This document shows positions 2,232 through 50,465 of a stretch of 64,000 nt of DNA, piece after piece; the first letter of the stretch is position 1; each line of letters begins with the position of its first letter. The translations under genes and the position numbers were made by a program. The notes below the pieces were generated by a model. That model was not told the origin of the DNA. It ran no database searches and saw only the letters and a program-made list of their open reading frames with translations. Source of the DNA: a virus; IMG/VR virus record IMGVR_UViG_3300009159_008629, positions 1-64,000 of that record; one strand, written 5' to 3'.

Positions 2232-2633
2232 ATGTACAGCTACATCCCAGAAGGGAAAATATTCGTTCGCGGTCAGGCAAGGTCGGTTAGCGACCGTTAT
2301 TCCTGTGTTCCGGAAGGTGGCTTGGAGTCATTCGGCTGCTCCAGGGTCGAGAGGAGAATATCAGTCTCTTACAGGTGGGGAGAAAGATCGATCGTCTATC
2401 TGAAATACAAAGCCATGAGGGGATGCATCGAAAAGGTCGCGATAAAGAGGGTGGTCATGAACAATAAGTATGGGGGTTACATACCGGTATACTGCGACAC
2501 CCTGAACTCCATATACAACGAAAACGAACTGATTACCGAAACCGAAGCCAGGCAATTGGTTCAGGCGTACATAGACAGAAAGAGGTCTGAGATCGCCCAA
2601 GCTGAGAGAAATTGCGAAGCCAACTCTATTTGA
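2232..2633 (+). CDS. Hypothetical protein, 133 aa
   Basis: The ORF starts at an ATG preceded by AGGAACTGAAC and ends 8 bases inside the convergent helicase gene. The protein has several cysteines (residues about 24, 36, 66, 90) and a C-terminal helix ending in RKRSEIAQAERNCEANSI. No family is recognised. It is probably co-transcribed with the 1852 gene. Confidence 0.7.
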   Translation: MYSYIPEGKIFVRGQARSVSDRYSCVPEGGLESFGCSRVERRISVSYRWGERSIVYLKYKAMRGCIEKVAIKRVVMNNKYGGYIPVYCDTLNSIYNENELITETEARQLVQAYIDRKRSEIAQAERNCEANSI

Positions 2634-4350
2634 TTTTTCCGCGCATGAGCTTTACGACTTGCATCGCGTCGTCGACCGCGCAGTGGATTCCCGATAGTTC
2701 CGAAGTGTAGTTCGACCTCTCCGTGCAAACTTTGAGGTCGGGAAGGCAATAGTCGCCATTCCTGAAGTAGAGTATCGCCGGGTCCAAGAACCTTTTCCTG
2801 AATATTATGTTGTTCCAGTTCTCTTTCGGTATCTTCGCCACCATGAACTGGTAGTCGAAAACCCCAAAGTTCTTCCCGGCGACATTGAGGACTATCTGCC
2901 CGTACTTGTTCGGCTCGACGCCGTTGTCCTGGAGGAAGTTCCCGAAGGAATACATCAGATCCTCTATGAACATGCATTCGTCAGGCTGTTCCGAGAGCTT
3001 CTTGAATATCCTGTGGTGCATGGACGCTGCTCTTGGCTCGCACGCCAGCGGTCCGTTCTTCTTGATGAACTTGTGGAATACGGGTAGTTTGTCGAACGGG
3101 GTTTCCGATTCCGTCCTGTCTATGACGGCTGCGAACTCGATTATGTCGTGGACCAGGGGGTCGGTCCCTGTTGTCTCTATGTCTATTGAAACGTACTGCA
3201 TTGCATCGCTTTCTGTTTGGTCGCTTCCTTGGGAACATGATCGTATCATGATTGCGGGAAAATTTAAAGGTAACTTGGAACAAAACTTGAGACTGCCCCA
3301 GACCACGCTTCCCTTAGCCCTGCTGGCTGCGGTGTAGTTCCATTTGTTGTTGTCCCACTCCGAACATCTCTGCTCGTACACTATGACCGAATCGAATTCG
3401 TCTCCCTGCGACTTATGGCAGGTTATGCAGTACGCGTAGTCGAAAGGGTGCGCGTCCTGGCTGAAATCGAATTCGTTTTTTTCCTTGCCCCATTGCTTGT
3501 CGTCGAACATGATGTTGTAGTAGTGGATGCCGCGCGAGACGAAGTCGAACCTCTTGCCGCACTTATTCACTTTTGTCACCACCCCCTGCATACCGTTGAA
3601 CAGACCGGCGTCCTTCTTGTTACGGAGGCAAATCACCTTTTCGTCCACGGAAACATAGGTGCATTCGATGTTCTTGAAGGCTCTGACCCGCTCGTTGACC
3701 CTCGTCCTCGTCTTGTTGAAGGCGCATATGACCTGGCTGACCTGGGCAAGGTGCTTGTCCTTGATCGCCGATTCCTTTACGACCTGGACTTTATCGCTTC
3801 CCTTGAAAGCCGTGGCTGGAAGACCCTTGCGCAGATGTTCCGCGAAATGGGCTATCTCCCCGGCGTTGCGGTGCACGGTCTCAAGCCTGTAGTCCGGATC
3901 GCCCATCAGGTTGAACTTGCCGCCTATCGGCTCGAGCTGACCATGGTCGCCGACATACAGTATTGGAACCCCGAAACTTAAAAGGTCGCGGTGTATGTCA
4001 TCTCCGACCATCGAAGCCTCGTCCACGATGAATCCATCGAGGTCGGGAATGTCTATCTTGGATTTCGTAACCCAGGAAACCTTGTTCGTCTCCTGGTCGG
4101 TGATTGGCTGGTATATCGTGCTGTGTATCGTGGACGCGGATATGCCCTTGCTCCTCAGCACGTTCGTGGCTTTGCCTGTGTAGGCGCACACGAGGAATTT
4201 CTTGCCCTTGCGCTTCAGAGCCTCGTGGATCGTCGACACGCACGTCGTTTTCCCGGTGCCAGCGTATCCGCCCATTGTTATGTGGCTGGAGTCGCCGATC
4301 CGCTTGAGTATCGACCGTATGGTGTCTTTCTGGTTTTCTGTTAATTGCAT
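2626..4350 (-). CDS. Dda/RecD-type SF1B helicase fused to DnaQ-like 3'-5' exonuclease
   Basis: One uninterrupted 574-aa frame holds two enzymes. Residues 1-370 are a superfamily 1B helicase: Walker A GGYAGTGKT at 27-35, Walker B VDEAS at 109-113, motif III GDHGQLEP at 134-141, then CHKSQGDEFDSV at 311-322 and YTAASRAKG at 339-347, which match T4 Dda and RecD-like enzymes. From residue 384 a DnaQ/DEDD exonuclease begins: DIETTG (Exo I) at 390-395, NFGVFDYQF (Exo II) near 494-502 and HCAVDDA (Exo III) near 558. Helicase and proofreading-type nuclease on one chain would couple unwinding to degradation of the 3' strand. An internal Met384 could also give the nuclease alone. The start follows GAGAG. 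Confidence 0.9.
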   Translation of the reverse strand: MQLTENQKDTIRSILKRIGDSSHITMGGYAGTGKTTCVSTIHEALKRKGKKFLVCAYTGKATNVLRSKGISASTIHSTIYQPITDQETNKVSWVTKSKIDIPDLDGFIVDEASMVGDDIHRDLLSFGVPILYVGDHGQLEPIGGKFNLMGDPDYRLETVHRNAGEIAHFAEHLRKGLPATAFKGSDKVQVVKESAIKDKHLAQVSQVICAFNKTRTRVNERVRAFKNIECTYVSVDEKVICLRNKKDAGLFNGMQGVVTKVNKCGKRFDFVSRGIHYYNIMFDDKQWGKEKNEFDFSQDAHPFDYAYCITCHKSQGDEFDSVIVYEQRCSEWDNNKWNYTAASRAKGSVVWGSLKFCSKLPLNFPAIMIRSCSQGSDQTESDAMQYVSIDIETTGTDPLVHDIIEFAAVIDRTESETPFDKLPVFHKFIKKNGPLACEPRAASMHHRIFKKLSEQPDECMFIEDLMYSFGNFLQDNGVEPNKYGQIVLNVAGKNFGVFDYQFMVAKIPKENWNNIIFRKRFLDPAILYFRNGDYCLPDLKVCTERSNYTSELSGIHCAVDDAMQVVKLMRGKIK

Positions 4351-4946: not shown

Positions 4947-5222
4947 CTAGTGACCTTGCTTTCCTATGGTGGATTTTTCGTCGAAGTGTTTGCATCCTTG
5001 GTGTTCAAAGGTCAGCAGTCCAGACCTTTCGCTCTTTTCGTTCGCGCACACGCCCCAGTCCATTCCTATCTCCCCTCCCAAAGGCAGATAGAAGCAGCAG
5101 CCGGAAGAGCAGTCTCTCCACTCCGACTTGTCTGTTTCCCCGAACGGCTCGAAATCGCTTGGGTCGCGCCTGACGATCTCAAGCAAATGGGAATGAATGA
5201 AGTTGGTGTCGTGGTCTTTCAT
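4947..5222 (-). CDS. Cysteine-rich hypothetical protein, 91 aa
   Basis: The block CSSGCCFYLPLGGEIGMDWG, then VCANEKSERSGLLTFEHQGC, gives several conserved-looking cysteines and may bind metal. I recall similar small bacterial proteins of unknown function with the DWGVC and LLTFEHQGC signatures, but cannot name the family. No ribosome site precedes the ATG; the candidate -10 element ends 10 bases upstream, so the message would have almost no leader. Confidence 0.75.
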   Translation of the reverse strand: MKDHDTNFIHSHLLEIVRRDPSDFEPFGETDKSEWRDCSSGCCFYLPLGGEIGMDWGVCANEKSERSGLLTFEHQGCKHFDEKSTIGKQGH

Positions 5223-5231
5223 GGTTCGAGC

Positions 5232-5260
5232 ATCATAGTGACATGTTATTTTTAAATCAA
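5232..5260 (-). promoter_or_regulatory. Sigma70-like promoter with TGTCAC half-site
   Basis: On the minus strand TTGATT (5255-5260), a 17-base spacer and TATGAT (5232-5237) lie just upstream of the 5222 start. TGTCAC directly abuts the -10 element (5238-5243) and matches one arm of the palindrome at 6381-6397. This suggests host-polymerase transcription early in infection and shared control. Confidence 0.55.
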
Positions 5261-5310
5261 CTGCAAAATCGGATAATGGATTTTAACTGATTTCGCAGTT
5301 GGAATTCAGC

Positions 5311-6360
5311 CTACTCTTCGTAATTGACGATCCCGTTGCTGATGAAATCCTTGCGTATCTCGGCGCCTTGGTAGATGCCGCGATGCGATATGCATGATGG
5401 TTCGAACGGATGGAAGCTGAATATTCCGTCGCTTCCCCTCACCCGACCATACCAATCCCGCCTAAAGTCGAATTCGTTGGCGTGCTTCAGAACCGATTCG
5501 TGGCAGCGAACGCATGACTTGCTGTTCAGCGCTATGGTTGCCGCGGAATAGTTCTTTGGCACTATGTGGAAGTCGGCGTCGGTTGTCGGGGCGAAAGACT
5601 CCTTGTGCCATTCCTCGCCAATAACATTGACGAAATCCAAGGAGAGAGCCTTCTTGACCAACGACTCCGGTATCGACTTCAGGTTCGTCGCCACAGCCTC
5701 GCCCTTGAAGATAAGGTGGGATTGGGATATCTCCTTTTCCTCGTGCTCGAGGGAGACCCCGTTCTGCGAGCAGAATTGGGAGAACTCCCTCAGATTGCCG
5801 AAAGGCTTGTATATGGCGACCTTCCAGTCGCCGTTAGGTCCTTTCCTTCTGGTCCTGACCTCGAATGTGTAGCTGGTTTCCTTGTGGTATATCTGCAAGA
5901 CCTCTCCGACCACCGTGTCCGTCGGGAAAGTCCAGACGAAGGATTTAATCCTGTCGCCCTCAAGGTATTTCCTCTTCACCTCTATCCTCTTGTCCTTCGG
6001 CAAAAGCAAGAACTTGAAGGAGTTGATGTTTTTCCCTGCAACCATCTCGGTGCCGGCTGGCGAACCCCAGGGGAATTCGACGTTTGGATTGCCGAACCTC
6101 TCGCGAGGCTTGTCTGCCGAAATGTTGTACGACGGGCTGTGTATCCCAGGAAGAGCCCCGACCCAGTCCTGGTACGCCTGCGGAATCTCCTTTTCCGTGT
6201 ATATTATCAACCTCTTGTTGTTCCTTATGGAGTTAAGGACAAGATCCTTGCTGTTCGGTATGTGCGACGCGAGTATGTCGTGCCTTTCCTCCGAAATCAT
6301 CCTGTATGGGTCTTGGCTGACAGCCATGAAAGAGATCAAACCCAAAATGAACGCATGCAT
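5311..6360 (-). CDS. Secreted protein with CxxCH heme-binding motif
   Basis: The start at 6360 is chosen because AAGGAGGTG lies just upstream, and it produces a clean signal peptide, MHAFILGLISFMAVSQ. The 349-aa product has one CVRCH heme c attachment motif at about 283-287, followed by RRDWYGRVRGSDGIFSFHPF. Other parts have no family that I recognise. Covalent heme attachment would need host periplasmic maturation, so the protein presumably works in the host envelope. The second histidine or methionine ligand is not obvious; HPF and HRG near 320-335 are candidates. The pattern reminds me of cytochrome-like domains in planctomycete genomes, from memory only. It is a single-gene unit with its own promoter and an operator-like palindrome. 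Confidence 0.8.
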   Translation of the reverse strand: MHAFILGLISFMAVSQDPYRMISEERHDILASHIPNSKDLVLNSIRNNKRLIIYTEKEIPQAYQDWVGALPGIHSPSYNISADKPRERFGNPNVEFPWGSPAGTEMVAGKNINSFKFLLLPKDKRIEVKRKYLEGDRIKSFVWTFPTDTVVGEVLQIYHKETSYTFEVRTRRKGPNGDWKVAIYKPFGNLREFSQFCSQNGVSLEHEEKEISQSHLIFKGEAVATNLKSIPESLVKKALSLDFVNVIGEEWHKESFAPTTDADFHIVPKNYSAATIALNSKSCVRCHESVLKHANEFDFRRDWYGRVRGSDGIFSFHPFEPSCISHRGIYQGAEIRKDFISNGIVNYEE

Positions 6361-6380
6361 GATGCACCTCCTTGTTTCCA

Positions 6381-6397
6381 TGTCACGATATGTGACA
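6381..6397. promoter_or_regulatory. Perfect palindrome TGTCAC-GATAT-GTGACA, operator-like
   Basis: Six-base arms around five bases, 21 bases upstream of the ATG at 6360 and just downstream of the predicted transcription start. It could bind a dimeric repressor or form an mRNA hairpin; it does not cover the ribosome site. Confidence 0.55.
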
Positions 6398-6408
6398 ATC
6401 GAAGGCGT

Positions 6409-6436
6409 AGTATAACAATGAGGATATAATAAACAA
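6409..6436 (-). promoter_or_regulatory. Sigma70-like promoter for the CxxCH protein gene
   Basis: Minus strand: TTGTTT (6431-6436), 16-base spacer, TATACT (6409-6414). The predicted start falls near 6402, immediately before the palindrome at 6381-6397. Confidence 0.55.
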
Positions 6437-6478
6437 TACGAAAATATTGTTTATTTCAACTTGGGTAATATAAGAAGT

Positions 6479-6736
6479 TTAGGATGTCTTTTTTTCCATC
6501 CATTCTTTGAACGCCAGCTTCTGAAACGTGTTGAGCTGCCTTTCTGGATTAAGCAGTATTTTGTCGATTTCTCGCTCGCCATCGGCGCTGGTGATCCTTT
6601 TCCAGGCTTTGTCTCTGGTGCTTCTTGAGTATTTCGCAAAGGATTTCTTCAGGTTGGAGGCTATGTCGAGGATAGCCTTCTGGAGGTTGGTGTCAACCTT
6701 CTTCGATTCCGGCTTCTTCGCCTGCTCTTTAGCCAT
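6479..6736 (-). CDS. Hypothetical basic protein, 85 aa
   Basis: A lysine-rich, mostly helical protein (MAKEQAKKPESKKVD start, KKSFAKYSRSTRDKAWKRI in the middle). No family is recognised. Its ATG lies inside the last codons of the upstream 6729-6998 gene (8-base overlap), which supports both reading frames. Confidence 0.65.
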   Translation of the reverse strand: MAKEQAKKPESKKVDTNLQKAILDIASNLKKSFAKYSRSTRDKAWKRITSADGEREIDKILLNPERQLNTFQKLAFKEWMEKKTS

Positions 6737-6998
6737 TTTTGCCCCTTTGTCCGGATTCTCGACTAGCGAGGAATTCGGCGAACGATTCCGATTTCATTTT
6801 GCGTTTTTTTATGTTGTTGGGTTTTTCGCCTTTCCTTATAGCTTTGTTTTCCTTCGGCGTATTCTGGTCGCTGCAAGCTCCCTGCGGTATGAAGTCGGCG
6901 TGCGGTCCGCAGCCGCCGATGTATGGACCGAAGCTAGCCATCTCCATTTGGTCAATTCTTGTCGGATTCGGAGTTGTTTTCGCGGCATTTCTGTTCAT
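6729..6998 (-). CDS. Small Cys/Pro protein ending in a capsid-targeting-like peptide
   Basis: The 89-aa minus-strand frame is preferred over the overlapping hydrophobic plus-strand frame because it ends 8 bases inside the next gene. A TATATACA element sits just before its ATG, with no ribosome site. It has a GGCGPHADFIPQGACSD segment, then a basic stretch, and near the C-terminus MKSESFAEFLASRES, which looks like the N-terminal targeting peptides of other proteins here, but at the wrong end. Function unknown. Confidence 0.5.
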   Translation of the reverse strand: MNRNAAKTTPNPTRIDQMEMASFGPYIGGCGPHADFIPQGACSDQNTPKENKAIRKGEKPNNIKKRKMKSESFAEFLASRESGQRGKNG

Positions 6999-7059
6999 GA
7001 TGTATATATGTTTTTGCCTTGGTTTTATTTCTGTGGTCCAAAACAAACCATTGGATCGA

Positions 7060-7070
7060 TATATATATTA
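7060..7070 (+). promoter_or_regulatory. Candidate late promoter, TATATATATTA
   Basis: It lies 30 bases before the ATG of the repeat protein gene at 7101, upstream of a CTAGGAAT ribosome site. Confidence 0.35.
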
Positions 7071-7100
7071 GTTCATTGGCGCAACTAGGAATCCGTTCAC

Positions 7101-7382
7101 ATGAAAACATTCTCAAGCTACATAGAAACCAGATTGGACGAAGCGGACGCACCTTCCGGCGGAGCACCTCCCGGCGGAGCACCTCCTATGGGAGCGCCGC
7201 CTATGGGCGGAGGAGCGCCGCCTATGGGAGCGCCGCCTATGGGCGGAGGAGCGCCACCCATGGGCGGAGGGGCTGGCGGCGGCGCCGTAGCGCCGACAAA
7301 ACCAGCCAAGAAGATAAAATCCCACAGCTTGTGGTCAGCCTGGAAGAAAATATTCAAGGACAAGGACGAGAAGAAAAAATAG
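7101..7382 (+). CDS. Candidate internal head protein with Gly/Ala/Pro/Met repeats
   Basis: The first residues MKTFSSYIETRLDEA match a T4 capsid-targeting peptide very well (T4 internal proteins start MKTYQEFIAE) and contain L-D-E, the L-x-E cleavage signature of the T4 prohead protease. The mature part would be a run of APPMGG-type repeats (residues about 17-62) and a basic tail rich in Lys and Trp (residues about 66-93). A low-complexity, charged protein like this fits packaging with DNA. The repeats are near-identical at the DNA level, so their number may vary by slippage. Confidence 0.8.
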   Translation: MKTFSSYIETRLDEADAPSGGAPPGGAPPMGAPPMGGGAPPMGAPPMGGGAPPMGGGAGGGAVAPTKPAKKIKSHSLWSAWKKIFKDKDEKKK

Positions 7383-12087: not shown

Positions 12088-14340
12088 ATGTCATCCAAAG
12101 CACTGTCCGATTATACTTTCGTTTCCAGATACGCCAGATACAACAGCGAGATAAGAAGGAGAGAGACTTGGCATGAGGCTGTGGAGCGGGTAAAGCAAAT
12201 GCACTTGGCGAAATACCCCATGGCTGCCGAGGACATAAATTTCGCCTTCTCCCACGTGCACGAGAAGGTCGCACTCGGAAGCCAGAGGGCTTTGCAGTTC
12301 GGCGGATCCCCCATACTGAAAAAAGAAGCCAGGATCTACAACTGCTCCGCGGCGTACTGCGACAGGACGAGGTTTTTCCAGGAGGCTACGTGGCTGCTCC
12401 TGTGCGGCTGCGGCGTCGGAGTCAGCGTCACGAAGAATCACGTGGACAAGCTGCCTAATTTCCACGCGGGTCTGGAGAGGTCGTCTGACTTGTCGGGCGA
12501 AATCATTTTTCAGATAGATGATTCCATAGAGGGTTGGGCGGACGCTTTCGGGGCTCTAATCGCGTCCTATATGCCACACTCGGAGTTCTATGAGTACTAT
12601 GGCAAAAAGTTGTCTTTTGACTACTCGAAGATAAGACCGCAGGGAGCCATGCTTTCGTATGGCATCGGCAAAGCCCCTGGGGCAAAGCCTCTGGAGGGAA
12701 GTCTCGAGAAGTGCAGAACCCTGATGAACAAGTGCCTCGACTCCGGCATGCGCAGGATGCGACCCATAGACTGCATGGACTACCTGCTTCACGCGTCGGA
12801 TTGCGTTCTCAGCGGCGGAATAAGGAGAAGCGCCGTCATAGTACTGTTTTCGGCGGACGACCAGGAGATGATGACCGCCAAGACCGGAGCCTGGTATTAC
12901 GACAATCCTCAAAGAGCAAGGAGCAATAATTCCGTCTTGCTCGACAGATCGTACACCACCAGGGACGATTTCCACAGCATGTTCGAGTCCACCAGGCAGT
13001 TCGGCGAACCTGGAATCGTCTGGACGGACTGTCCGGCAGAGCAGCTTTTCAATCCCTGCAATGAAATCTCATTGAGAGGATATGACGAGCATGGGAACTC
13101 CGGTTTCCAGTTTTGCAACCTCACCGAGATAAACGGGTCGAAGTTGACGTCCAAGGACAACTTCGCCTTGGCTGCGAAGGTGGCGTCCATCATAGGCACC
13201 CTGCAGTCCGGATACACGAAGTTCGATTATCTGGGAAGGGTGAGCGAGGACATAACGAAAAAAGAGGCTTTGCTCGGAGTTTCCATAACTGGCATGATGG
13301 ACAACCCGGACATATGCTTCGACCCAGCCATCCAGAGGGACATGGCTCATTTGGTCCTCGAGGTCAATGAGGGAATGGCTCGCAAGATAGGCATAAATGT
13401 TTCCGCGAGGTCGACGACGATAAAGCCAGCGGGTACGACTTCTTGTCTGCTCCAGACCTCAAGCGGGATTCACCCGCACCATGCCAAAAGGTACATACGA
13501 AGGGTTCAGAGCAACGCCATGGAGAACCCGATACAGCATTTCGCCAACGTAAATCCCATAGCCATAGAAAACTCCGTATGGAGCGCAAACGGCACTGACA
13601 AGGTCGTTAGCTTCCTCATAGAGACCAAGGGCGGGTCCCTGACGAAGTCCGATATCGACGCCGTGAAACTCCTCGAATACGTCAAGTTGACGCAGGAGAA
13701 CTGGATCAGGAGTGGTACCAGGGAAGAAAAATGTGTAGCCCCTTGGCTCACCCATAATGTCTCGAACACGATCAACGTGAACGATGACGAGTGGGATTCC
13801 GTGGAGCAGTTCATATACGAGAACAAGAATAGTTTCGCCGGCATATCCCTTCTAGGGTCCACCGGAGACCTCGATTACCCGCAGGCTCCGTTCACGAAGG
13901 TGCTGACTGTCGACGAGATAGTCGCGAAGTACGGCAAGGGATCAATATTCGCCTCCGGTCTAATAGTCGATGCCCTTCACGCGTTTCGCGGAAACCTGTG
14001 GAAGGCGTGCGATGCCGCGATGGGCGTTTTGTCCATAGTCGAGCCGTCGAAGCCAGAAAAGCTCGACGATGAGATCGCAGAGAAGATCCAGTCCGAATGG
14101 CTCCATTTCAACCTCCAAAAGGACTGGGTTCGCCGTGCCAACCAGTTCGCCGAGAGATATCTCGGAGGAAACACCAAGGAACTGACCTACCTCCTGAAAG
14201 ATGTCAACAACAACAAGCACTGGGAAGATCTTTCCAGGGTCTACAAGGATGTCGATTACACGACCATGACGGAGCAGGAGGACAACACCAAGCTGGCTGA
14301 GAACATAGCTTGTAGCGGTGGAGCTTGCCAGATGTTCTAA
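12088..14340 (+). CDS. nrdJ: Adenosylcobalamin-dependent ribonucleoside-triphosphate reductase (class II)
   Basis: The 750-aa chain matches monomeric B12-dependent RTPR. It has the first redox cysteine region IYNCSAAYCDRTRFFQEATW near residue 90, SGGIRRSAVIVLF near 250, the active-site block FNPCNEISL near 321-329 with the radical cysteine, NLTEING near 350, and the C-terminal redox pair CSGGAC near 743-748. It makes dNTPs for phage DNA synthesis without oxygen dependence and needs adenosylcobalamin from the host. Strong ribosome site AAAGAGGT. CTP synthase follows, giving a nucleotide supply block. Confidence 0.93.
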   Translation: MSSKALSDYTFVSRYARYNSEIRRRETWHEAVERVKQMHLAKYPMAAEDINFAFSHVHEKVALGSQRALQFGGSPILKKEARIYNCSAAYCDRTRFFQEATWLLLCGCGVGVSVTKNHVDKLPNFHAGLERSSDLSGEIIFQIDDSIEGWADAFGALIASYMPHSEFYEYYGKKLSFDYSKIRPQGAMLSYGIGKAPGAKPLEGSLEKCRTLMNKCLDSGMRRMRPIDCMDYLLHASDCVLSGGIRRSAVIVLFSADDQEMMTAKTGAWYYDNPQRARSNNSVLLDRSYTTRDDFHSMFESTRQFGEPGIVWTDCPAEQLFNPCNEISLRGYDEHGNSGFQFCNLTEINGSKLTSKDNFALAAKVASIIGTLQSGYTKFDYLGRVSEDITKKEALLGVSITGMMDNPDICFDPAIQRDMAHLVLEVNEGMARKIGINVSARSTTIKPAGTTSCLLQTSSGIHPHHAKRYIRRVQSNAMENPIQHFANVNPIAIENSVWSANGTDKVVSFLIETKGGSLTKSDIDAVKLLEYVKLTQENWIRSGTREEKCVAPWLTHNVSNTINVNDDEWDSVEQFIYENKNSFAGISLLGSTGDLDYPQAPFTKVLTVDEIVAKYGKGSIFASGLIVDALHAFRGNLWKACDAAMGVLSIVEPSKPEKLDDEIAEKIQSEWLHFNLQKDWVRRANQFAERYLGGNTKELTYLLKDVNNNKHWEDLSRVYKDVDYTTMTEQEDNTKLAENIACSGGACQMF

Positions 14341-14447: not shown

Positions 14448-16088
14448 ATGGCAAAATACATTTTCGTGGTTGGTGGCGTCATATCCGGCACGGGCAAAGG
14501 TGTTGCCGCAGCCAGCATAGGTCTTCTATTGAGGCTTCGAGGTCATGTCGTGACTTTGGTCAAGTTCGATCCGTACTACAACATCAACGCTGGCATCCTC
14601 GGACCCGGAGAGCATGGGGAATGTTTCTTGTGCGACGACGGCACGGAGACTGACCTTGACTTGGGTCACTACGAAAGGATAGCTGGAATAACGGTCAGCA
14701 AGGACAATATTTGCACCCACGGAATTCTCCAGAAGGAACTGATCGAGGAACAAGAGCAAGGGAAGTACCTCGGCGAGACCATACAGGTCAATCCCCACCT
14801 CACAGACAAAATAGAGAAGAGGCTGGTCGATCTCGGCAAGAACCACGACATAGTCATCGCCGAGGTTGGCGGGACAGTCGGCGACTCGGAAAGCTTTGCG
14901 TTCTACGAGTCGATCAGGCTTTTCAAGCAAAGCCATAGATCCGAGGTGCTTATCGTAATGGTCGCCCCCATATTGTGGATCAAGACCATCAAGGAATTCA
15001 AGACGAAACCCCTCCAGAATGCCGTCAAGGACTTGCAGAGGCACGGCTTGCAGGCTGATGTCCTTCTCTGCAGGGTTGAGAAGCCGATACCGGAGAAGAT
15101 TCTGGACAAGGTGTCTCAACTTTCCAACGTGACCAGGGAATGCGTTTTCGAGGCTCCCGATTTCGAGTCCATATACGAGGTTCCATTAGCCTACTACAAC
15201 CGCCATGTCGACGACTTGTTCGTGGATCTGTTTCACCTCAACAGAAGCGCCTGCAGGATCCACAAGTACCGCGAGGTTGTCGAGAAATACACCAACAACA
15301 ACCTCAGACCGATTTCCATAGGGATTTTCGGCAAGTACGACAATTGCGACGAAGCTTACATATCCCTGAAAGAGGCTTTGCTGCATGCCGGCATAGCGAA
15401 TGACTCCAAGGTGGAGATTCATTGGTTCAAGTCGGAGGATCTGGAGAAGTACAAGGACAACCGTGGTCTGCACAAGTTTTTCGAGAACCTAGACGGGATA
15501 ATCGTACCGGGCGGGTTCGACAACAGGGGGATAGAGGGCAAGATAAGGTGCATACAATATGCTCGCGAGAAGAAAGTTCCATTCCTCGGCATATGCCTTG
15601 GTCTGCAATGCGCCGTCATAGAGTTTTCCAGGAACGTGTGTCGCCTTGAGGGCGCCAACAGCATGGAGTTCGACAAGGAAACCAAGAATCCGGTGGTGAA
15701 GTTCGTTTCTGGTCAAGATGGGCTGACGAAAAAGTCGGCAAGCATGAGGCTTGGTGCATATGATTGCGAGCTCAAGAAGGAAACCATAGCATACGAACTT
15801 TACGGGCAGAAAACGGTGAGGGAGAGACACAGGCACAGATACGAGGTCAACGAGTCCTACATTCAAGGTTTCGAGGAAGCCGGGTTTTTGGTCAGCGGAA
15901 GGAATCCGCAGACGAATCTGGTCGAGATCATGGAGTTGAATGCCGATTTGCATCCTTTTTTCATAGGCACACAGGCTCATCCCGAGTTCAAGAGCAGGCT
16001 CACCGCGGCAGCCCCTTTGTTCAAGGGTTTGATAGCCGCAGCCATAAAGAACAAAAAAGTCGCGCCGGAAAACATAAATAAAGCATGA
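14448..16088 (+). CDS. pyrG: CTP synthase
   Basis: 546 aa with both domains: the ATP-binding amidoligase domain begins AKYIFVVGGVISGTGKGVAA, with GTETDLDLGHYERIAG near residue 64-79, and the glutaminase domain has nucleophile GICLGLQCAV near 379-388 and the AHPEF triad end near 510. It converts UTP to CTP with glutamine. The P-loop reads SGTGKG where bacterial enzymes usually have SSLGKG or SGLGKG, and GILGPGEHGECFLCDDG differs from the usual block, so it is a divergent lineage. Its stop overlaps (ATGA) the start of a candidate internal head protein. Confidence 0.95.
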   Translation: MAKYIFVVGGVISGTGKGVAAASIGLLLRLRGHVVTLVKFDPYYNINAGILGPGEHGECFLCDDGTETDLDLGHYERIAGITVSKDNICTHGILQKELIEEQEQGKYLGETIQVNPHLTDKIEKRLVDLGKNHDIVIAEVGGTVGDSESFAFYESIRLFKQSHRSEVLIVMVAPILWIKTIKEFKTKPLQNAVKDLQRHGLQADVLLCRVEKPIPEKILDKVSQLSNVTRECVFEAPDFESIYEVPLAYYNRHVDDLFVDLFHLNRSACRIHKYREVVEKYTNNNLRPISIGIFGKYDNCDEAYISLKEALLHAGIANDSKVEIHWFKSEDLEKYKDNRGLHKFFENLDGIIVPGGFDNRGIEGKIRCIQYAREKKVPFLGICLGLQCAVIEFSRNVCRLEGANSMEFDKETKNPVVKFVSGQDGLTKKSASMRLGAYDCELKKETIAYELYGQKTVRERHRHRYEVNESYIQGFEEAGFLVSGRNPQTNLVEIMELNADLHPFFIGTQAHPEFKSRLTAAAPLFKGLIAAAIKNKKVAPENINKA

Positions 16089-49715: not shown

Positions 49716-50465
49716 TCAGTTACCGATGTCGAATTTCGGTCTGATCTGGGGCATAGTCCAGACTTCCTTTCTTATTACTGTATTGACGGTGGCGTTCCGG
49801 ATTGTCCATTCCATCGATATGCCTTCTTTGTACCATATGATGTGAATCTTTCTCGGCACGAATGTTTTCCCAGGAAAATCGTATTCCGAGATCTCGGAGC
49901 TGGCTGTCATCGAGCCGTCCTCTCCATACAAATAGCTTCCTTTTATTGCCCCAGATTCGCCCACGAGGGTTCCTATCGTTGTTTTCTCGCCTAGATGGTT
50001 TTTCTCCTCCTTGAGGAACATTTGGCTTCCCCCCATCTTGATCTTTTCCCCTGTGGATTCCACCTTCGGTCTGACGCATGTCAGCATCCATTTGGGGTCC
50101 AGGGCTGGCTTCAGTTTGGTTTTCCCAATGTTGTCGAGGCTGGAGAAGTACAACCCATACGGCTTTCCGCGCCGTGACCAGTACCAGAGTTCGGAATCGT
50201 TTATTCCGACATCTATCTCCTTTCCAAGAACGCTTGAAGCCACCAGCCTGAATTTGTCGCCCTCGACACATATCGTGCCGTGAAGGCTGACGGAGATTCT
50301 TTGCCTAACCGTTATGAGTATTTCCGCATGCATGTTCTCGTAGGCAGCCAAAGGTTTCTCTTTGCCAGCAAGCCCTTCGCTTGTGCCTTTCGCTGATTTT
50401 GGATCGATTTTAATGGCAAAAAAAACGATTGGGATGATAAATAGAATCAAGAGTAGTTTTTTCAT
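49716..50465 (-). CDS. Secreted LolA-like protein
   Basis: MKKLLLILFIIPIVFFAIKI is a signal peptide or membrane anchor. The remaining residues suggest a LolA/LolB-like half-barrel: ENMHAEILITVRQRISVSLH, DKFRLVASSVLGKEIDVGIN, DSELWYWSRRGKPYGLYFSS. The G-IND-E-WYW-RR--P block resembles lipoprotein-sorting-like proteins that are abundant in Planctomycetes; this is from memory. It would act in the host envelope, perhaps as a lipid or lipoprotein carrier. No ribosome site; a TATGTA element lies just upstream. Confidence 0.7.
   Translation of the reverse strand: MKKLLLILFIIPIVFFAIKIDPKSAKGTSEGLAGKEKPLAAYENMHAEILITVRQRISVSLHGTICVEGDKFRLVASSVLGKEIDVGINDSELWYWSRRGKPYGLYFSSLDNIGKTKLKPALDPKWMLTCVRPKVESTGEKIKMGGSQMFLKEEKNHLGEKTTIGTLVGESGAIKGSYLYGEDGSMTASSEISEYDFPGKTFVPRKIHIIWYKEGISMEWTIRNATVNTVIRKEVWTMPQIRPKFDIGN

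Follow-up and report, generated by a model that had tools for sequence, protein, structure and literature searches.

The window analyzed here, a stretch of 64,000 nt of viral DNA, raises the question of whether a phage encodes an exported protein to which its host would have to attach heme covalently, and what such a protein might do in infection. The first-pass annotation had described a phage-encoded, secreted protein with a c-type heme motif. The phage assignment holds: the record that carries the gene at 5311-6360 also encodes a tail sheath, a sheath stabilizer, a tail tube and a baseplate hub, and the window belongs to a contractile-tailed phage. Tail or head genes or a terminase are also found on the L036, L037 and L038 records (a terminase in the case of L038), which places the gene on genuine phage genomes and not on host contamination.

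The gene and its leader comprise the following features.

5311..6360, minus strand: putative gene encoding a secreted, monoheme c-type protein of 349 amino acids (plus stop codon)

6366..6373, minus strand: Shine-Dalgarno sequence AAGGAGGT, 5 nt upstream of the ATG (6360)

6313..6360, minus strand: signal-peptide-like leader MHAFILGLISFMAVSQ, with a hydrophobic peak (KD 2.61) and Sec-type leaders of bacterial relatives at the same position

The reading frame stays open to 6381 (minus strand, 6381 to 5311), and residues are numbered below either from 6381 (C290, C293, H294, H324) or from 6360 (C283, C286, H287, H317). The gene at 5311-6360 is the likelier one, because AAGGAGGT lies 5 nt from the ATG at 6360 and the relatives begin at approximately the same position. 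As judged from sequence only, a hydrophobic N-terminus is found in 11/11 phage members and an ordinary Sec-type leader in most bacterial members. Early Arg or Lys residues are mostly absent from the phage leaders, and the designation "signal peptide" is therefore likely but less than certain. The protein is likely to be exported by means of this leader, and its description as secreted is retained with "probably" attached.

The first-pass annotation reported one CxxCH followed by WYGRVRGSDGIFSFHPF without giving a strand; both are present on the minus strand, and a third conserved region was found near the N-terminus.

5500..5514, minus strand: predicted heme-c attachment motif CVRCH, in which both cysteines and the histidine are invariant (40/40 members), in a short helix of the AlphaFold2 model

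5404..5454, minus strand: segment WYGRVRGSDGIFSFHPF, C-terminal to CVRCH, with Y, G, G, D and H in 40/40

6067..6141 (HSPSYNIS onward), minus strand: near-invariant N-terminal block GIHSPSYNIS...GN.N.EFPW, with H in 38/40 and F and P in 40/40

A CxxCH is weak evidence by itself, since the motif appears in 29 of 20,000 shuffles of the 5311-6360 protein and the helicase encoded at 2626-4350 holds a coincidental CITCH within a CHKSQG stretch. Conservation was assessed in an alignment of 40 family members, 11 from phages and 29 from planctomycetes. The annotation had staked its heme reading on cysteines conserved among homologs, and C290, C293 and H294 (from 6381) are invariant in all phage and bacterial members (40/40), so that CVRCH is not a product of chance. 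These residues stay invariant even in members outside the clade of the window protein, which are only 28-42% identical to it. Covalent heme at this motif is strongly indicated by the alignment.

The second invariant histidine, that of FSFH within WYGRVRGSDGIFSFHPF (5410-5412; H324 from 6381, H317 from 6360), is present in 40/40 members and is the candidate distal heme ligand. H81 (from 6381), conserved in 38/40 and absent in L061 and L062, two divergent members, would be the second choice behind H324. H272 (from 6381) is conserved in 33/40. H300 (from 6381) was rejected as distal ligand, being conserved in only 18/40. Ligation by two histidines, H287 and H317, is suggested as probable. About 30 residues are invariant throughout the protein, many of them charged, and E160, E174, R176 and D318 (from 6381) are nearly or fully invariant.

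Searches for relatives gave viral contigs (IMG/VR) and Planctomycetota. Scanning with the last 65 residues recovered 11 IMG/VR contigs with relatives 55-97% identical over that part, and a profile scan of IMG/VR contributed one further contig, L038, making 12 other contigs among 2.9 million. No relative occurs among the 50,697 annotated phage records (0/50,697) or among annotated plasmid records; the matches H1-H18 from these collections were rejected as chance. The claim of rarity in phages accordingly stands for this family, to which the figures are confined. In a scan of the genomes of 84,980 species we found 16 cellular relatives, all in Planctomycetota and placed in Gemmataceae, Pirellulales and unplaced Planctomycetia. 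The family is sporadic and rare within planctomycetes: it is carried by 1/294 genomes in a Planctomycetota sample, 4/95 genomes from the family to which G002, a carrier in Gemmataceae, belongs and 22/297 genomes from the order to which G006, a carrier in Pirellulales, belongs (all three counts include genomes already found), and nearly all carrying genomes have a single copy. The bacterial relatives share no conserved neighbor or partner gene, and some are flanked by ordinary chromosomal genes (rlmN-, mnmA- and aldolase-like).

The window protein has no significant match in Pfam, NCBIfam or PHROG, and a Pfam scan of 26 family members gave no significant match either, cytochrome c domains included. 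We found no report of the family in the open-licence literature. In the resources searched, the protein family is unnamed and has neither a domain model nor a known structure; the class to which the gene would belong, that of phage auxiliary redox genes, is already known.

A planctomycete is the most likely host of the window phage, as all cellular relatives found belong to Planctomycetota and the phage contigs L009 and L010 carry a DUF1559 pseudopilin-like protein at most ~2 kb from the heme-c gene. The DUF1559 family is greatly expanded in planctomycetes and was found in 0/14 control genomes. A search for a direct host link of the window phage returned none. DUF1559 pseudopilin-like proteins with an N-methylation motif are encoded in two low-GC phages, close by the heme-c gene on one side or the other (L035:12202-13146 and L039:8929-9882).

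CxxCH is described as the motif recognized by cytochrome c synthases such as CcsBA (PMC8112865). Proteins of the Cytochrom_C_asm family are encoded in 16/16 carrier genomes checked, and with the conserved CxxCH (40/40) and the N-terminal leaders, both read from the sequences, they would place the protein among c-type cytochromes in the broad sense, for the host inferred above. A phage fusion, L038:4291-6075 (IMGVR_UViG_3300005471_000011), joins a thioredoxin domain with an intact CPNC (Pfam E 2.3e-9) to the heme-c family, and the bacterial member L061 has an N-terminal extension that by eye resembles a thioredoxin domain without the cysteines. These fusions, the second of them apparent, point to redox work. 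They could also be taken to mean that the CxxCH is a thiol/disulfide or metal site and binds no heme, and the helicase at 2626-4350 illustrates that a CxxCH is possible without heme. Yet the histidine of the motif is as invariant as the cysteines, which a thiol site would not need, the protein is predicted to be exported and the assembly machinery is present in all carriers checked; we regard a thiol or metal site as very unlikely.

The gene is kept in several distinct phage contexts. In the window, L001, L004/L005 and L007, it has kept a position close to a gene for a Dda-like helicase/exonuclease. In L008 it adjoins a gene shared with the window ORF 12088-14340, which reads as a ribonucleotide reductase, in L011 a terminase and a methyltransferase are nearby, and in L012 it lies between a head-tail adaptor and the major head protein. 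The surroundings of the gene vary in GC content between 28% and 67% across contigs, and in the low-GC (28-30%) phages the third-position composition of the heme-c gene matches. In the tree, the proteins of the window clade, L009/L010 and L012 are nearest to Gemmataceae proteins, with modest support, and L011 groups elsewhere with L038 on long branches; a single phage clade was not rejected (AU p = 0.195). The dN/dS ratio is 0.08-0.16 in three close phage pairs, indicating purifying selection.

Two further elements flank the gene.

6409..6436, minus strand: promoter-like element TTGTTT-N16-TATACT, in similar form in five diverged phages

5258..5301, minus strand: 13-bp stem-loop shortly after the stop codon, without a clear U-run (-18.4 kcal/mol; z-score of -3.8 for 5223-5310)

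The first-pass annotation credited the gene with its own host-type promoter. In favor of this, a TTGTWW-N16/17-TANNNT or TATAAA element is located at -69 to -80 from the start codon in the window, L003, L004, L008 and L009, and 2-12% of shuffled upstream regions match the pattern for each phage. No combined probability is given, since four of the five phages are related by descent and the pattern was defined after the sequences were seen. On the other side, the pattern has 2 matches in the 64 kb, which equals chance expectation, and a generic promoter scan is hardly above chance (6 found vs. 2.5 +/- 2.0 expected). The claim gains some support from the element shared among the phages. The stem-loop is possibly the end of the transcript, and element, gene and stem-loop together look like a self-contained cargo unit. 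The resemblance to a moron extends to the host-related gene and its varied neighbors, and, as in an auxiliary metabolic gene or moron, a homolog is found in the putative host lineage, within Planctomycetota only. Morons, phage cargo genes that are autonomously expressed, are best known in temperate phages. The idea that the gene is passenger DNA, acquired by chance and functionless in the phage, can cite its rarity among phages overall; we consider it extremely improbable in view of a dN/dS of about 0.1, the retention of the gene with matching third-position composition in the low-GC phages and the conserved promoter-like element.

AlphaFold2 models were computed from 26 and from 40 sequences (mean pLDDT 78 and 82, pTM 0.80 and 0.83, respectively). 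A beta-rich core is modelled with confidence. Confidence is lowest in stretches that include residues 82-95 and about 280-315 of 349, and in both models these take in a large part of the conserved N-terminal block and of the heme segment; this presumably reflects the lack of a cofactor in the prediction. The N-terminal block is possibly a wall of the heme pocket. A sequence-profile search of the PDB gave no significant match, and fold searches of the PDB with the two models and of a viral fold library gave nothing at E <= 0.001, with low TM-scores. Matches to the rotavirus VP8* fold were rejected (probability <= 0.3).

Among known heme-c proteins, cytochrome P460 (PF16694) was considered because of the beta-rich part that precedes the C-terminal CxxCH. 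Cytochrome P460 is an exported protein and is present in 20/79 planctomycete genomes, and in both P460 and the window protein the CxxCH lies towards the C-terminus. In contrast to P460, the window family has ~60 residues after the CxxCH, the invariant FSFH and other invariant residues. The listed Foldseek matches contain no P460 entry, for a query whose heme segment is modelled at low confidence, and P460 was rejected because hhalign covers only 23 columns around the CxxCH (probability 28%). With class I cytochrome c and the other cytochrome c domains of Pfam, planctomycete ones included, the family shares its predicted monoheme attachment at CxxCH and, in the model, the short helix, but its 26 scanned members have no significant profile match to them.

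The charged residues E160, E174, R176 and D318 look more like those of an enzyme or binding protein than of a plain carrier. A heme-c enzyme might oxidize or reduce a small molecule, or detoxify peroxide or NO, by which the phage would protect the infected cell or tap a substrate, with His317 catalytic or displaced. The spread of ~30 invariant and often charged residues over the whole protein, the two-part architecture, in which a heme segment stands beside a confidently modelled beta-rich part, and the single copy in nearly all carriers are in keeping with this, whereas the protein shows no similarity to known heme-c enzymes, P460 included, and the invariant second histidine suggests that the sixth position is filled. 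On these grounds the enzyme is somewhat unlikely, if a serious contender. A sensor or ligand-binding protein, in which an envelope heme c would report gas or redox state or shield the infected cell (superinfection exclusion), appears improbable: a c-type heme is described in an extracytoplasmic sensor domain (PMC12889525), but the members scanned have no recognizable signaling domain and the bacteria have no conserved partner gene.

We favor, at about even chances, the reading that a contractile-tailed phage carries here a cargo gene (auxiliary metabolic, moron-like) with a redox role in the envelope, and that this gene has its relatives in a rare family of exported monoheme c-type proteins in planctomycetes. 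The gene would be transcribed from its own host-type promoter, as the conserved element suggests, and the leader would direct the product through the host Sec system. Host cytochrome c assembly would then join heme to C283 and C286, with H287 as proximal ligand, a step for which the invariant motif argues strongly. H317 of FSFH would probably be the sixth ligand, so that the redox heme would be His/His ligated and lie against the conserved N-terminal block. Finally, and most tentatively, the holoprotein might transfer electrons in the envelope or contribute to a redox reaction that serves the infection, sustaining host respiration or envelope redox balance. It is also conceivable, though we hold it rather doubtful, that the family represents an undescribed heme-c fold of planctomycetes and phages in which the N-terminal block and FSFH close over the covalent heme as an active or sensing site, and that several phage lineages maintain the gene, driven by a host-type promoter of its own, as a means of controlling a respiratory step or the redox chemistry of the envelope in infection.

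Phage redox cargo genes are known from soxC and soxD (PMC8190135), and cyanophages carry photosynthetic electron-transport genes (PMC5082946). These are host-derived redox genes retained by phages, as the window gene would be in the favored reading; the window gene differs in its likely planctomycete host and its unnamed protein family. Cytochrome c motifs would be expected in SoxD. Both reported viral soxD copies lack the second motif and one also lacks the first (PMC8190135), whereas the motif is intact in 11/11 phage members of the window family. An exported phage protein that depends on the host for the covalent attachment of heme would be unusual among phage electron carriers and single metabolic enzymes. 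If the favored reading is true, the envelope redox chemistry of planctomycetes would appear to be a target of their viruses, a hardly studied phage group would gain a handle, and an uncharacterized bacterial redox family would be opened to direct test.

No phage tRNAs were found in the 64,000-nt window, and Rfam gave no match in 5000-7200. A small protein encoded next to the heme-c gene (4947-5219, minus strand) matches DUF3027 (E 2.9e-7) and is conserved in related phages. The Dda-like helicase at 2626-4350 (minus strand) and its exonuclease-like C-terminal part form a single ORF of 574 amino acids; the related contigs L029, L030, L031 and L007 have two ORFs in its place. An apparent CTP synthase gene, recognized from its translation, is located at 14448-16088 (plus strand). 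A second protein with a hydrophobic leader, without a PHROG or Pfam match, is encoded at 49716-50465 (minus strand) and may be another exported cargo protein. L035:7617-8990 encodes a phage RCC1-repeat protein (Pfam E 8e-84) with relatives in L039, L030 and others.
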